Of a stretch of DNA of 27,932 nt, positions 807 to 8,162 are shown piece by piece (position 1 is the first letter of the stretch; every line of letters begins with the position of its first letter). The translations under genes and the position numbers were made by a program. Source of the stretch: a virus; the IMG/VR virus record IMGVR_UViG_3300040960_001799, positions 1 through 27,932 of that record; one strand, given 5' to 3'. The notes below the pieces were generated by a model. That model made no database searches. It saw only the letters and a list, made by a program, of their open reading frames with translations, and was not told the DNA's origin.

Positions 807-1070
807 TCAGAAAGGGAACTCAGCGTTCTCGTCGTATTCAGGCTGCTGGTTCTTTATCGGCTGTTTGACTTGCGCTTGCTCTGGCTCGTCCCGTAAGGGG
901 TTGCTGTAGGCGATGCCTCGGTAGCCATTGGGGAATAGCTCAGGGCAAACCCTGGTGTTACTCAACCAGCCCGGTGACGGACGATCGAGCTGATCAACGG
1001 TCCATAGGCCTCGTTCAAGACCGCGGCGCAGGATTGCCCGAAGCGCAACCGGGTCGATAGCCCTAAGCAT
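807..1070 (-). CDS. Small protein with SSB-like C-terminal tip
   Basis: An 87-residue protein from ATG 1070, preceded on its strand by AGGTGG five bases upstream and overlapping the end of the previous gene by 8 bases; a GTG at 1079 is an alternative start. The N-terminal half is helical and basic (LRAILRRGLERGLWTVDQLD), the middle contains a P/W-rich loop (RPSPGWLSNTRVC), and the C-terminus is a low-complexity Q/P/E linker ending in DENAEFPF. An acidic tail finishing in P-F at the very end is the hallmark of bacterial SSB proteins, where the tip recruits replication and repair enzymes. There is no visible OB fold here. It follows the replication initiator and the gene after it in one transcription unit, which fits a replication accessory role, but no family is recognised. 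Confidence 0.65.
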   Translation of the reverse strand: MLRAIDPVALRAILRRGLERGLWTVDQLDRPSPGWLSNTRVCPELFPNGYRGIAYSNPLRDEPEQAQVKQPIKNQQPEYDENAEFPF

Positions 1071-1464
1071 CGAAGCCACCTACCAGAACGGGGTTTGTTG
1101 CGGCTTGCTTAAGCAGCGGCTCGTGATCGGCTTCTGGCGCCTGATGGTGAGGGTGGAAGCACGAAGGCAGCGCCATGCGGTGATGCAGGTCAGCCTTAAG
1201 GCCCCAGTCGAAGGCAGGCTGGCCATCGCGCATACGGAACACGTAGCTGAGCACCTGCAGATGCAGCGGAAGCTCTTTGGCCGGTTCAGGGTCCATCATG
1301 CGCTGCGAGCAGCCGAAGGCCCACATCTCGTCGGTGACTGTGGCTTTGACATCAGCAGGCAGCAGTAGCCAGATGAACTGCACCTCTTCGTTGGTGAGCT
1401 TCTTGCCGTAGGGCAGCGAACCGGACAGGGCCATTAGGCCTAGGCCGAAGGTCTTGGCGTTCAT
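1063..1464 (-). CDS. Replication-operon protein of unknown function (position of lambda P)
   Basis: A 133-residue protein whose ATG overlaps the stop of the replication initiator as ATGA, which implies translational coupling. The N-terminal two thirds looks compact and helical (TFGLGLMALS, LTNEEVQFIWLLLPADVKAT, LPLHLQVLSYVF); the C-terminal third is histidine-rich (HHRMALPSCFHPHHQAPEADHE) and ends in VLVGGFDA. I do not recognise the family. Its place directly behind the initiator is where lambda P and other phage helicase loaders sit, so a loader role is a reasonable guess from position only. In-frame sequence upstream of this ATG overlaps the initiator gene and is not expected to be translated. 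Confidence 0.7.
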   Translation of the reverse strand: MNAKTFGLGLMALSGSLPYGKKLTNEEVQFIWLLLPADVKATVTDEMWAFGCSQRMMDPEPAKELPLHLQVLSYVFRMRDGQPAFDWGLKADLHHRMALPSCFHPHHQAPEADHEPLLKQAATNPVLVGGFDA

Positions 1465-2270
1465 TGGTTTGTGGGGACTACAGGGATTGCGTTGGGGAAA
1501 AAGGACTTGCCGTTCAGGGCGTCCCAGTCGATCTGAGAGCGATCGAACTGGTCCTGATAGCTGGATGGCCGCGAGAGACGCCCAGAAGCCCCTAGAAGGG
1601 GCTCCGGCGCCTTGTGGTGCAGATCGGCCCAGCAACCAGCGATAGCGGCCTCCAAGGACGCTGTGCGGTCCTCTGGTGGCCAGCCGGCCAGCTTGCGGCA
1701 GATGCGATTGAAAACAGGCGTGCTTCTGGCGCCTTTCTTGCCGGCCCAGTATTCGGCCAACAGGTCGGCGTGCTGTAGCAGCTCCAACGGCACGGCATCA
1801 GGCGGTAGCTGCTTGAAGCGCAAAGGGTCCGTTTTGGAGCGTTTCGGGCCTGGCTTTTTGGACTCTCCGTTAGGAGAGTCTTTTTCTATCTGGTTAATGG
1901 GTTCTGGTTTGAGTGCACTTTTGTGCACTGGTAGCCGTGCACTTTTGTGCACTGGTTGGGTGGTGCACTTTTGTGCACTGGTCCTGTCTGCACGCATAGG
2001 GCGGACGAAGTAGACGGTGGTGCTGCCTTGGCGTTTGGCGTGATCGACCCAGCCGTTCAGGCGCAGCCACTTGAGGCAGCGCAGGGCGGTGCGGCGACAG
2101 ACCTTGGAATCGGTTGCGATGCGCTCAGCAGACGCGAAACAACCTCGATCTGAACGGTTGCCGTACAGGTGCAGCACGGCATAGACCGCGATGGTGTAGG
2201 CATCAGGAGCGTCGGCGATCAGATCGGAAGGGATCTGGGCGAACTGGACGCTGCGGAACTGAGCAGGCAT
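1461..2270 (-). CDS. Phage replication initiator, winged helix-turn-helix (lambda O-like)
   Basis: A 269-residue protein that probably binds the phage origin and starts replication. The N-terminus (residues about 15-90) is a winged-helix domain: helix AYTIAVYAVLHLYGNR, helix-turn-helix CFASAERIATDSKVCRRTAL with recognition helix up to LKWLRLNGWV, and a wing VDHAKRQGSTTVYFV. This is the helix-turn-helix type common in phage replication proteins. A linker (residues about 97-155) contains the peptide repeat PVHKSA, encoded by the DNA repeats at 1913-1981, and a basic run (KKPGPKRSK). The C-terminal part (about 160-235: LLQHADLLAEYWAGKKGARS, FNRICRKLAGWPPEDR) may contact the helicase loader, as in lambda O. 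It starts one base into the stop of the upstream regulator (TGATG) and overlaps the next gene by ATGA. Placing the origin inside this gene is an inference from the lambda arrangement. Confidence 0.8.
   Translation of the reverse strand: MPAQFRSVQFAQIPSDLIADAPDAYTIAVYAVLHLYGNRSDRGCFASAERIATDSKVCRRTALRCLKWLRLNGWVDHAKRQGSTTVYFVRPMRADRTSAQKCTTQPVHKSARLPVHKSALKPEPINQIEKDSPNGESKKPGPKRSKTDPLRFKQLPPDAVPLELLQHADLLAEYWAGKKGARSTPVFNRICRKLAGWPPEDRTASLEAAIAGCWADLHHKAPEPLLGASGRLSRPSSYQDQFDRSQIDWDALNGKSFFPNAIPVVPTNQ
1861..1880. other. Perfect hairpin next to the iteron array
   Basis: GACTCTCC (1861-1868) and GGAGAGTC (1873-1880) form an 8-bp stem with a GTTA loop, followed on the + strand by TTTTTC. It has the form of an intrinsic terminator for + strand transcripts, yet both flanking genes run leftward and it lies inside the initiator gene. 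It may be a dyad belonging to the replication origin, or it may stop antisense transcripts. The 30 bases between it and the first iteron are T-rich. Confidence 0.6.
1913..1981. repeat. Three 19-bp iterons (six GTGCAC boxes), candidate replication origin
   Basis: The sequence GTGCACTTTTGTGCACTGG occurs three times without mismatch at 1913-1931, 1937-1955 and 1963-1981. Each copy holds two GTGCAC palindromes exactly 10 bases apart, so there are six boxes; the copies start 24 and 26 bases apart. The array lies in the linker-coding part of the replication initiator gene. Lambda and relatives carry their origin iterons in the same place within gene O, beside an easily melted stretch; here a T-rich stretch (1881-1912) and a perfect dyad (1861-1880) lie next to it. 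Origin function is an inference. Confidence 0.75.
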
Positions 2271-2437
2271 CAGGCCTTAGCTGAGCTGTTATCGCCAACC
2301 TTCTTGAGGCCTTGCTGGATCAGGTAGTTCACCCATCCGGTACGGCTGACGCCGGCCGGTGCTGAGGTGTCAACAAGCTCGACAACGGTTGGGTCTAGAT
2401 AGACGCGAGTTGCGTTGGCGCTGTTCTTGCGTGTCAT
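2270..2437 (-). CDS. Ribbon-helix-helix regulator
   Basis: A 55-residue protein from ATG 2437. Residues about 9-21 (ATRVYLDPTVVELVD) form the expected beta strand and start of helix A; GVSRTGWVNYLIQQGLKK is helix B with its turn. This is the Arc/CopG/MetJ type of small dimeric DNA-binding protein. It is the first gene of the leftward replication unit and shares a TGATG junction with the initiator. The control region in front of it has GCCTA boxes at about one helical turn spacing and a TATAAT box, so it is likely to regulate itself and possibly the divergent nuclease operon. Longer in-frame versions reach back into that control region and are less likely. The fold is clear; the regulatory target is an inference. 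Confidence 0.75.
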   Translation of the reverse strand: MTRKNSANATRVYLDPTVVELVDTSAPAGVSRTGWVNYLIQQGLKKVGDNSSAKA

Positions 2438-2473
2438 GTGCCTAAAAGTGCCTAGAGCAGGCCTATTATAGGC
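2438..2473. promoter_or_regulatory. Divergent control region: GCCTA operator array with TATAAT box
   Basis: GTGCCTA occurs at 2438-2444 and 2448-2454, GCCTA again at 2461-2465, and its complement TAGGC at 2469-2473, so that GCCTATTATAGGC (2461-2473) is a perfect palindrome. The boxes are spaced 10, 11 and 8 bases apart, as expected for a tandem ribbon-helix-helix operator. On the minus strand 2470-2465 reads TATAAT, a consensus -10 box for the leftward genes, about 28 bases from the regulator ATG; its -35 region is poor (TGTCCT at 17 bases), which fits a regulated promoter. On the + strand TATTAT (2464-2469) could serve the nuclease operon. Confidence 0.65.
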
Positions 2474-2495
2474 AGCAGAAGCCCACCAGGACACA

Positions 2496-3191
2496 TTGCC
2501 AGCCATCACCGGACCAGCCCTTAGCCTCCCATCTGCCGGCCAGCTCTTGCCGCCTATTGAAGGCCTTTGGATGGAGCCAGGCGCCCATCGCTACTGCTTC
2601 CGCGGTGACTGGCTGCCCTTCAGCGTCACCCGCATCGTGAGCGATCTGAGCCCCAAAGCCCGCGAGCAGATCGAGCGCACGAAAGACGGCCCGGATGGCT
2701 GGGCCATACGTGGCAGCAGCATTCACGGGATCCTCGAGCAGCACCTTCTTGGAGTGGCCAGCGGCGGCCTGCAGGGAGTGATCTATGACAATCGGTGGAG
2801 TCAGTGGGCTGAGCCGCTCCTTGACCACTGGCTGTTTAGAGACTGCAAGGTGCTAGCCGTCGAGATGGCGCTCTGTGATCCACGCAAGAGGGTTGGCGGC
2901 AGCTTTGATTTCCTAGTGCGCACTGCCGAGGGGCAGACAATCCTGGGCGATCTGAAGACGGTCACCACCGCCGCGGCCTTGAAATCGCGCAAGCCGGCAA
3001 CGGCGCAGCTGGGTGCCTACGCCTCGATGATGTGCTGGTGGTGGCCAACAATCACGATCGACCGCTGCGCCACGTTGGTGGCTGCACCGGGCGAGTGTGA
3101 GCTGAGGGTTGAAGACACGGCCAAGTGCATGGCGGCATGGCAGGAGGCCTGGGAACGGCACGATACAGCTGAGCGTTTGCGTGGCTTCTGA
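2496..3191 (+). CDS. PD-(D/E)XK exonuclease, RecB/Cas4 family
   Basis: A 231-residue nuclease. The RecB-type motifs are in order: His77 in RGSSIHGILEQH, Asp138 in GGSFDFLV, the D-x-K motif Asp152/Lys154 in ILGDLKT, and QxxxY (Gln171, Tyr175) in QLGAYASMM. This metal-dependent fold trims DNA ends; in phages such a nuclease often works with a single-strand annealing protein, and one is encoded at 5776-6477. The start used is TTG, preceded by AGGA five bases away; ATG 2571 gives a 206-residue version that keeps all motifs. It is the first gene of the rightward operon, facing the ribbon-helix-helix regulator across a 58-base control region. Family assignment is firm; partnership with the annealing protein is an inference. 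Confidence 0.85.
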   Translation: MPAITGPALSLPSAGQLLPPIEGLWMEPGAHRYCFRGDWLPFSVTRIVSDLSPKAREQIERTKDGPDGWAIRGSSIHGILEQHLLGVASGGLQGVIYDNRWSQWAEPLLDHWLFRDCKVLAVEMALCDPRKRVGGSFDFLVRTAEGQTILGDLKTVTTAAALKSRKPATAQLGAYASMMCWWWPTITIDRCATLVAAPGECELRVEDTAKCMAAWQEAWERHDTAERLRGF

Positions 3192-5343: not shown

Positions 5344-5783
5344 GCCTTGCCTATTCCTTCACGGTGTGGGGTACAGCTGCACCGCAGGGCAGCAAGCGAT
5401 TGCTCGGCAAGGTGATGGTGGAATCATCCAAGCGTGTCCACCCTTGGCGCAGCGATGTCCGCATGGCTGCCATAGAGAACAAGCCTGCAATCTGGGCAAT
5501 GAATGTTCCCATGGATGTTCTGATCCGCTTTTGGTTCCCTAGGCCTGCCAGCCATTACGGGTCCAGAGCAGGCATCAGCTACCTGAAGGCCAGCGCACCA
5601 GATGAGCCAGTTAGCGCAAGGATCGGCGACATCGACAAGCTCAGCCGAGCCATCCTTGATGCCCTGACAGGTGTTGCATACCTCGACGATCGTCAGGTGA
5701 TTGGTCTGAACTCAAGCAAGGGGTATCTGATCGGCCGCGACTGCGCGCCTTACACACACATCGCAATCACGCCTCATGCCTGA
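5340..5783 (+). CDS. rusA: RusA-type Holliday junction resolvase
   Basis: A 147-residue protein. RusA enzymes are dimeric, metal-dependent endonucleases that cut four-way DNA junctions during phage recombination and before packaging. Seen here: the N-terminal strand and PQGSKR turn, the catalytic GDIDKLSRAILDAL (Asp97, Asp99, Lys100, Asp107) and YLDDRQV (Asp116/Asp117), which match the conserved acidic residues of the family. The length is a little above that of E. coli RusA (about 120). The start overlaps the previous stop as ATGA, and the end overlaps the annealing protein gene by 8 bases. The assignment is strong. Confidence 0.92.
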   Translation: MSLAYSFTVWGTAAPQGSKRLLGKVMVESSKRVHPWRSDVRMAAIENKPAIWAMNVPMDVLIRFWFPRPASHYGSRAGISYLKASAPDEPVSARIGDIDKLSRAILDALTGVAYLDDRQVIGLNSSKGYLIGRDCAPYTHIAITPHA

Positions 5784-6477
5784 AACCAACAATCTCAACA
5801 TCCCCAACCTGGCGGGTGTCATCACAAAGGCCGACGTTGACACCAAGGGCACCGGCTCCTATGCCGCGTCCTACGTCAATTGGGCGAAGGTGGCGCATCT
5901 GCTCCACGAGCACGCTCCTGGCTGGGACTTCCACCTAAGGCCGGCACTTGACGGCAACCTGTTGCACCAGGCTCCTGATGGCACGGCCTTTGTGGTTGGT
6001 GAGTTCATCGGGCCAGAAGACGAACGGCTAGCCAGTTTTCCGTTCCCTTGCATGGACCATCGGAACAATCCGATCCAGTTCGACAAGGTGAGCGCTCGAA
6101 TACTGACCGACACACACCGCCGAGCGATGTGCGCCTGCGCTGCCTTCAGCTTTGGCCTGGCCTATGAACTCTGGGCTAAGGATCCGGTAGAGGATCCGCA
6201 CCGCGAGGAACCAGCATCCAAGGCCGAAGCAAAGCCAGCACCTAAGGCCGCGGCCAAGCCGTCCAAAGAGCCCCAGCAGCAGGCCCAAGGCCAGCCGATC
6301 ACAGAAGACGAACGCCAGCTATGCGTTCAGCTTTTAAAGGATCTCAATCCTGAGCAGCGCAATCAGCTGATCGTCGCATTCAAAGAGCGATTCAGCCTTG
6401 CTGCCGACGCTCTGATCACTCAACACATCACCACCACCGAACATCGTGACTTCATCCAGCAGCAGCTCACCGCGTGA
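5776..6477 (+). CDS. Single-strand annealing protein, DUF1071 (Sak3-type)
   Basis: A 233-residue protein. Residues about 28-138 fit the DUF1071 family of phage recombination proteins: SYVNWAKVAHLLHEHAPGW, a central strand pair around GTAFVVGEFI, the conserved FPFPCMDHRNNPI, and SARILTDTHRRAMCACAAFSFGLAY. Such proteins coat and anneal complementary single strands in phage recombination. A low-complexity Ala/Lys/Pro linker (about 145-172) leads to a C-terminal helical domain (TEDERQLCVQLLKDLNPEQR and on), which may bind a partner. RusA precedes it and an SSB gene follows two genes later. The family match is by eye and good in the core; the C-terminal domain is not identified. Confidence 0.8.
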   Translation: MPETNNLNIPNLAGVITKADVDTKGTGSYAASYVNWAKVAHLLHEHAPGWDFHLRPALDGNLLHQAPDGTAFVVGEFIGPEDERLASFPFPCMDHRNNPIQFDKVSARILTDTHRRAMCACAAFSFGLAYELWAKDPVEDPHREEPASKAEAKPAPKAAAKPSKEPQQQAQGQPITEDERQLCVQLLKDLNPEQRNQLIVAFKERFSLAADALITQHITTTEHRDFIQQQLTA

Positions 6478-7241: not shown

Positions 7242-8162
7242 ATGGATTCCATCCACCACTATCTGACCGAGATTGCACGCCATCCTCTGCTGACTCCTGC
7301 CGAAGAGATCCAATACAGCCGACAGATCCAGAGGATGCTCGATCTGCAAGCTCAAGACATCGATCCGTCTGACTACACGCGGGAGCAGAAGATGATCATC
7401 CGCCGCGGCCAACGAGCCAAGGAGCGCATGATCACTCGCAACCTGCGCTTGGTGGTCACGATCGCGAAAAAGTACACGCGGCGCTGCTCATCGCTTGAAA
7501 TGTTGGATCTAGTGCAGTTTGGCAACATAGGTTTAGACCGTGCCACTGAACTTTTCGATCCATCGCGAGGCTATAAGTTTTCGACTTATGCCTACTGGTG
7601 GATCCGCCAATCGATCAGCCGTGGCCTGCAGGATTGCGATCGGATGATCAGGTTGCCCATCCACAGGCAGGAAAAGATTGTGAAGCTGCGCACCTTCATG
7701 ACGCGTCACCAGCAAACGACCGGCAGAGAGCCAACGCTTGCAGAATGCGCGGCCGAGCTGGAAATCGAATCTGATGATGTGATGTTGTCGCTTGTGATGG
7801 CCAGAGATGTCACGAGTCTCGACAACCATGCCTCAAACGACATTCAGAAGGATCGACTTATTGATCTGATCCCAGACGAGAAAACACTATATGAAGACGA
7901 CGATCTCACCTTTGAGCGTGACATGCTCGCAGATGCTCTCAACAGCCTGGACGAAGAAGATCGGTATTTGGTCTGCAGTTACAACGGCCTGCCCGGATAC
8001 AAGAAAGCCAGCCTTTCAGCGCTCGGCAATGAAGTTGGCATTAGCCGCGAAGGTATCAGGCAACGGATACAACGATCCATGATGCGCATCAACAGGCACA
8101 TCCGCCAGCAGTGCCAAAATGAAGGCAGGCGGCTAGCCACTAATGCGGGTTCGAGTAATTAG
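7242..8162 (+). CDS. RNA polymerase sigma factor, sigma-70 family (cyanobacterial group 2-like)
   Basis: A 306-residue sigma factor without region 1.1. Region 1.2 is at about 3-30 (SIHHYLTEIARHPLLTPAEE), region 2 at 66-139 with RNLRLVVTIAKKYTRR, RGYKFSTYAYWWIRQSISRG and MIRLPIHRQEK, region 3 at 141-195, region 4 at 228-290 with a helix-turn-helix (SLSALGNEVGISREGIRQR). It should bind host core RNA polymerase and direct it to -10/-35 promoters. The -35 contacts (Arg269, Glu270, Arg273, Gln274) are kept. Odd points: the usual core-binding IQEG reads VQFG (Phe93 in place of Glu), and residues after Gln274 differ from the norm. It is preceded by a terminator and no clear promoter. Its style suggests descent from a host gene. 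A phage transcription switch is an inference. Confidence 0.9.
   Translation: MDSIHHYLTEIARHPLLTPAEEIQYSRQIQRMLDLQAQDIDPSDYTREQKMIIRRGQRAKERMITRNLRLVVTIAKKYTRRCSSLEMLDLVQFGNIGLDRATELFDPSRGYKFSTYAYWWIRQSISRGLQDCDRMIRLPIHRQEKIVKLRTFMTRHQQTTGREPTLAECAAELEIESDDVMLSLVMARDVTSLDNHASNDIQKDRLIDLIPDEKTLYEDDDLTFERDMLADALNSLDEEDRYLVCSYNGLPGYKKASLSALGNEVGISREGIRQRIQRSMMRINRHIRQQCQNEGRRLATNAGSSN

Follow-up and report, generated by a model that had tools for sequence, protein, structure and literature searches.

The 27,932-nucleotide stretch of viral DNA analysed here (IMG/VR record IMGVR_UViG_3300040960_001799; hereafter the window) carries an array of three iterons inside its replication initiator gene, which is very probably the core of a phage replication origin of the lambda type, as judged from its sequence and from the analogy with lambda. 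In gene order, the winged helix is followed by the iterons, an AT-rich stretch, a hairpin and the C-terminal domain, in agreement with a preliminary description that had placed an origin inside the initiator gene as in lambda.

The initiator gene (1461-2270, minus strand) was assigned by ORF translation and by matches to Pfam HTH_36 and PHROG profiles, and codes for a protein of 269 aa in which an HTH_36 winged helix is followed by a linker and a C-terminal helical domain. Residues 26-75 matched Pfam HTH_36 (PF13730) with 28.8 bits against a curated cut-off of 25, the sole HTH_36 match in the record, and neither Phage_rep_O (PF04492) nor RepA_N occurred among the Pfam matches of the protein at E values up to 0.1. 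Lambda O and P22 gp18 both match Phage_rep_O. The PHROG profiles matched by the window initiator belong to replication initiation and O-like families, and phrog_678 (replication initiation O-like) is common to the window protein (3.7e-6), lambda O (1.7e-35) and P22 gp18 (2.5e-38). The initiator is thus presumably O-like in its working, though it stands outside the Phage_rep_O family as defined by Pfam. An AlphaFold2 model, calculated from an alignment of 34 sequences with a mean pLDDT of 66, placed the predicted winged-helix DNA-binding domain at residues 10-92 (codons at 1995-2243, minus strand; pLDDT mostly 78-93), its predicted recognition helix at residues 59-71 and the C-terminal helical domain at residues 150-222 (1605-1823, minus strand), the latter being swapped independently of the iterons in relatives. 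Codons 97-145 (1836-1982, minus strand) correspond to a linker predicted to be disordered (pLDDT below 50), which hosts the origin-like DNA. An ORF at 1063-1464 (minus strand) starts on an ATGA overlapping the initiator stop; it is conserved in the related locus L004 and showed no family match in profile scans.

The array lies between the regions coding for the DNA-binding and C-terminal domains, the position occupied in lambda-type origins. A repeat search returned three exact 20-bp copies, reading GTGCACTTTTGTGCACTGGT on the plus strand and all assigned to the minus strand: iteron 1, the first in gene order (ACCAGTGCACAAAAGTGCAC), at 1963-1982, in a reading frame different from that of the other two, iteron 2 at 1937-1956, and iteron 3, adjoining the AT-rich stretch, at 1913-1932. 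The preliminary description had reported three exact 19-bp repeats with paired GTGCAC boxes 10 bases apart; its coordinates, copies and boxes were reproduced, while the repeat length was corrected to 20 bp. Each iteron contains two boxes 10 bp apart, and the array accounts for six of the seven GTGCAC boxes in the window. The iterons have the form AGTGCAC-AAAA-GTGCACT, with inverted arms around AAAA that are perfect over 7+7 positions in the third copy and agree at 6 of 7 in the others, resulting in an 18-19-bp inverted repeat with a central A tract, as in lambda-type iterons. The box centres are spaced 10, 14, 10, 16 and 10 bp apart across the array and, therefore, only the two boxes within one copy share the same face of the helix; this spacing ruled out the earlier reading of six equally facing boxes. 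Synonymous shuffling of the initiator gene gave six GTGCAC boxes in none of 20,000 trials and three copies of any 14-mer in none of 3,000.

Copies 2 and 3 encode the peptide PVHKSA, and the earlier statement that the frame accommodates the repeats as this peptide holds for these two; copy 1, in the other frame, encodes TSAQKC. Selection of PVHKSA, with the DNA repeat as a by-product, would fit two of the three copies, but it conflicts with the different frame of copy 1 and with the relatives, in which 29 genes have at least two motif copies and all but one of these read them in two or three frames (28 genes). The residues also vary between unchanged GTGCAC boxes, and the region is predicted to be disordered. 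The peptide-repeat reading, ruled out by frame usage, is largely refuted and deserves hardly any credence. The comparison with L004, the sole close relative with the GTGCAC type (91% identity to the window initiator), bears directly on this point. All six boxes and both spacings are kept in L004, whereas bases between the boxes changed and altered the residues: none of the 36 box bases differ against 6 of the 34 spacer bases (p 0.010). The preliminary description had named homologues that keep the peptide and lose the DNA repeat as evidence against its reading; L004 shows the opposite, keeping the boxes and changing the residues. Synonymous differences occur in 2 of 39 linker codons and in 55 of 197 codons elsewhere (p 0.0009). 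The alignment also showed a run of 82 bp without any difference (1854-1935), comprising iteron 3, the AT-rich stretch and the dyad, which was reached in 40 of 20,000 mismatch shuffles and, by codons, in 260 of 100,000. Since the window and L004 are the only two GTGCAC-type members, the constraint on the exact array rests on two sequences. On the sequence evidence, the repeats are a DNA signal and not a peptide repeat, because the copies differ in frame, L004 keeps the boxes while residues change, and synonymous change is suppressed.

Iteron-like repeats with other sequences were found at the same place of the gene in relatives' loci from viral contigs, with the same anatomy of inverted-repeat iterons, AACCCA repeats and a hairpin. 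The gene table was built from 80 loci by omitting L100 and L110, which are cut by a contig end, and removing 8 exact duplicates, so that 70 genes and the window gave 71. The iteron types of the relatives were CTAGGTCG-AAAA-CGACCTA, CCCCTTGC-AAAAAC-GCAAGGGG, GGTTCA-AAAA-TGAACC, TGTACCG-GATC-CGGTACA, and CCCC-AAAA-GGTGG together with shorter CC-AAAA-GG forms. The number of inverted repeats with 7-bp arms exceeded that of shuffles in most genes of the first four types and was near the shuffle level in L012, L014, L015, L039, L041, L051 and L106, which belong to the CCCC and CC-AAAA-GG classes; the dyads of these classes are short, and their repeats were recognised by eye as direct repeats about 24 bp apart. 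In many relatives the iterons are followed by 12-15-bp (A)AGAACCCA repeats and then by a hairpin (often GGCGCAAGCGCC), in the same order as in the window. The closest isolate by initiator protein was cyanophage KBS-S-2A, whose homologue CPKG_00028 (about 32% identity) has in-gene repeats at the same place as the window; unlike those of the window, they are of the CCCC-AAAA-GGTGG type, and the gene is annotated as a hypothetical protein.

The preliminary description had proposed examining whether repeats and winged helix change in concert, and this proved to be the case in the relatives, on the evidence of a Mantel analysis, domain swaps and a helix motif, the window type having two members. 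The Mantel set consisted of 34 genes, namely those of the 71 with a winged-helix type, an intact 5' end and more than 200 residues, plus KBS-S-2A; L018 to L022, which have other C-terminal domains, were left out. In this set, iteron k-mer distance tracked recognition-helix distance (Mantel r 0.80, p 0.0005), and with the helix controlled no such relation was seen for the C-terminal domain (r -0.085, p 0.86) or for residues 1-44 (r 0.07, p 0.18). The helix motif [ST]RKxxQR and the AGGTCG iteron were both present in 16 of the 34 genes and both missing from 18, with no mixed case. When the 17-bp iteron was searched as bare DNA, 49 stretches were retrieved, 46 of them within initiators with an intact [ST]RKxxQR, whose winged helices are of 30 distinct sequences with identities as low as 42%; the other three were a truncated initiator (L148) and single copies elsewhere (L172, L176). 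The motif was defined post hoc and many of the sequences are related, so these counts do not represent independent events.

Exchanges between relatives pointed in the same direction. Between L044 and L045, identity is 97-100% over bases 1-120, drops to 40-73% over 121-390 and returns to 87-100% beyond, the divergent part reaching from the recognition helix as far as the last iteron. The same middle dip was observed in L054/L086 and L099/L094, with lower flanking identity in places. L031, L047 and L049 have near-identical C-terminal domains with three different winged helices and three different iteron sets. In the reverse direction, the C-terminal domains of L044/L052 and of L014/L051 are different, and more of the winged helix and iterons is common to each pair. 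Breakpoint analysis, performed on 31 genes (465 pairs) after omission of L050, L065 and L111, showed scattered change-points in the 44 pairs alike at the N-terminus, with rough offsets since the automatic AACCC anchor was sometimes placed too early (at 359 or 368). Iterons and winged-helix codons are physically linked, and their co-inheritance is by itself weak evidence. The correlation with the recognition helix appears stronger, yet post hoc and among related sequences. Taken as sequence comparisons, these data indicate that in the relatives the iteron sequence is that which follows the recognition helix and not the C-terminal domain.

These results also bear on the possibility that the array is a centromere or a packaging signal bound by another winged-helix protein. 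A Foldseek search with the initiator model returned generic winged helices only (best E 0.013), and these weak matches include plasmid segregation proteins; a profile search of solved chains gave no match below E 0.055. The initiator itself, however, matches replication initiators, and the arrays vary with the recognition helix of this same protein, making a centromere or packaging role highly improbable.

An AT-rich stretch (1881-1912) follows the iterons 3' in the direction of the gene, as in lambda-type origins and likewise in the relatives; with a G+C content of 11/32 against 0.60 for its kilobase, it represents a putative unwinding element. It holds one AGAACCCA box at 1898-1905, and similar boxes are repeated in relatives. 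The perfect 8-bp dyad reported beside a T-rich stretch was recovered at 1861-1880 as GACTCTCC-GTTA-GGAGAGTC, with a T run 3' of it on the plus strand. Folded as DNA, the dyad gave a z of -5.8; for the corresponding stretch of KBS-S-2A the advantage over shuffled sequences is slight (z -1.8 and -0.95). The dyad may be a third origin element or an antisense terminator. A terminator scan of the plus strand returned a match at 1860-1881, and GTGCAC-TTTT-GTGCAC folds as well, as would be expected if the dyad and its T run stopped transcription entering from the left and the palindromes acted as RNA hairpins. Such a terminator or attenuator would account for the dyad at most and not for the iteron spacing, and it leaves unexplained both the covariation with the recognition helix and the reuse of the array DNA across frames. 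As an explanation of the whole array it is very unlikely, although a terminator and an origin may coexist.

The lambda-type origin reading was further examined against annotated origins. The annotated lambda iterons (ATCCCTC-AAAA-CGAGGGA and similar) are followed by an AT-rich stretch and an inverted repeat, and in P22 the annotated origin has dyads of the GGTAAA type together with a hairpin and AT-rich repeats; in both phages, elements that the annotation does not list were identified by eye. The window shares with lambda ori in gene O and with P22 gene 18 the inverted-repeat iterons in the linker-coding part of the initiator gene, their A-rich or short AT-containing core (the lambda iterons being 20-24 bp apart), and the AT-rich stretch after the iterons followed by an inverted repeat. 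It differs from lambda in the arm sequence, each window arm being self-palindromic, in having three copies instead of four, in its HTH_36 initiator by Pfam compared with Phage_rep_O, and in its host, presumably a cyanobacterium. According to the literature on lambda, O dimers bind the iterons, which are inverted repeats of 18-19 bp with adenines between the arms and adjoin the AT-rich region that opens (PMC6022878, PMC7466680, PMC5043065). The proposal of a distinct origin type unlike lambda iterons was abandoned upon comparison with lambda and P22, as lambda iterons, both as annotated and as published (PMC6022878, PMC7466680), also consist of inverted arms around AAAA, and the GTGCAC arms are merely self-palindromic.

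By analogy with lambda, a winged-helix dimer would bind each iteron (AGTGCACAAAAGTGCACT), the three bound dimers would wrap or bend the array, the AT-rich stretch beside it would melt, and the C-terminal domain would bring in the helicase or its loader. No helicase or loader gene was identified among the window proteins scanned with Pfam and PHROG. Elsewhere the record is consistent with a tailed phage, its genes including those for tail, endolysin, exonuclease, Sak-like annealing protein, RusA-like protein, SSB and sigma factor. At 7242-8162 (plus strand), Pfam and PHROG assigned a sigma-70 factor of the phage that spans regions 1.2 to 4. The maximum of the cumulative GC skew, near 3 kb, coincides with the change in gene orientation near 2.5 kb.

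Palindromic arrays are common beside regulators, and a small RHH-like ORF (2270-2509, minus strand) lies just upstream of the initiator gene. These features would be in line with an autoregulatory operator, bound by the initiator or another regulator only for transcription control. However, the array is intragenic, some 300 bp past the gene start, and the relatives' arrays precede a constant block of AT-rich repeats and a hairpin, like those of lambda and P22. An operator function alone is thus unlikely, and autoregulation may occur besides origin function. Just upstream of the initiator gene, L004 carries instead a 93-aa winged-helix ORF (L004:2700-2981), with an HTH_IclR match over the cut-off.

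The in-gene origin plan, and even its modularity, is already known. According to PMC8022706, lambda, P22 and Salmonella phage L have distantly related initiators, each with its own iterons in the coding region; compared with these three phages, the present set contains many more genes, identifiable recognition-helix changes and breakpoints. In the RepA_N plasmid pSK41 the origin lies inside rep, in a dispensable linker, and in the chimera pPR9 the N-terminal domain (pfam13730) and the origin were exchanged together over about 500 bp while the C-terminal domain stayed, according to PMC5703833. The new N-terminal domain of pPR9 belongs to the family of the window initiator; pSK41 and pPR9 are Gram-positive plasmids with a RepA_N C-terminal partner, unlike the phage initiators described here, and the phage swaps can be as small as about 270 bp, with the beginning of the winged helix retained. 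For the PLE satellite, PMC8263062 reports that the RepA_N DNA-binding domain varies together with the origin iterons, in contrast to a conserved C-terminal domain, with selection linked to an origin-cutting nuclease; the PLE origin is outside the gene, unlike the in-gene array of the window. A search for publications on cyanophage iteron origins, recognition-helix covariation and cyanosiphovirus origins, which covered titles and the openings of abstracts with subscription journals sparsely represented, retrieved none on such a set.

The host of the phage is presumably a cyanobacterium, on the basis of its relative KBS-S-2A. The lambda origin plan would thereby be extended to relatives of a cyanobacterial siphovirus. 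The group would gain a concrete origin candidate that can be tested; in KBS-S-2A, the one isolate encountered, its initiator is annotated merely as a hypothetical protein. The relatives provide natural matched and swapped initiator-origin pairs, an unusually clear data set on initiator-origin specificity, and these ready-made variants lend themselves to direct tests of DNA recognition rules and origin incompatibility. More tentatively, and leaning slightly against it ourselves, we consider that HTH_36 initiators might form a modular specificity system, in which phages exchange a compact cassette, bounded by the recognition helix and the last iteron, through recombination at the conserved AACCCA/hairpin block, with a readable helix-iteron code and a change of origin type. 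If so, a few helix residues, such as those of [ST]RKxxQR, would pair with the iteron arm CTAGGTCG, the GTGCAC type of the window would be one letter of the code, and the change of origin type would perhaps evade incompatibility or origin-directed interference.

In 31 genes with the same C-terminal domain, a short RHH-like domain (MPRINLTVQPELYDYIL...) takes the place of the winged helix at the N-terminus, for example in L055-L059, L061-L064, L067-L071, L073, L074, L076 and L077. The designation RHH is a reading of the sequence, and the three such domains tested gave no Pfam match. No clear in-gene iteron array was seen in the four loci of this type examined; in L056, three 18-nt copies precede the gene, and the other three loci were without an array.

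An exact 16-mer search of viral contigs returned six stretches (L004-L009), some chance matches being expected at 16 bp, and no initiator was seen in the stretches examined of L005, L007 (400 bases each) and L009. Genome contigs searched with the C-terminal alignment gave 71 pattern matches, none of them confirmed. At L006:200-330, a single GTGCACAAAAGTGCAC with degenerate neighbours is located in the linker of another O-like initiator, and at L008:6613-7275 three GTGCAC boxes 10 bp apart occur in a gene that directly follows an ATPase, which we take to be DnaC-like. The double array pattern was matched by L004, L129 and L128, the last being rejected as a repeat-rich stretch. In L129, an unrelated virus contig, three AGGTGCAC-ATTT-GTGCACCT dyads (L129:5302-5385) with the same arms as those of the window lie outside the gene, just 3' of a small winged-helix-like gene at 5408-5890 (minus strand).
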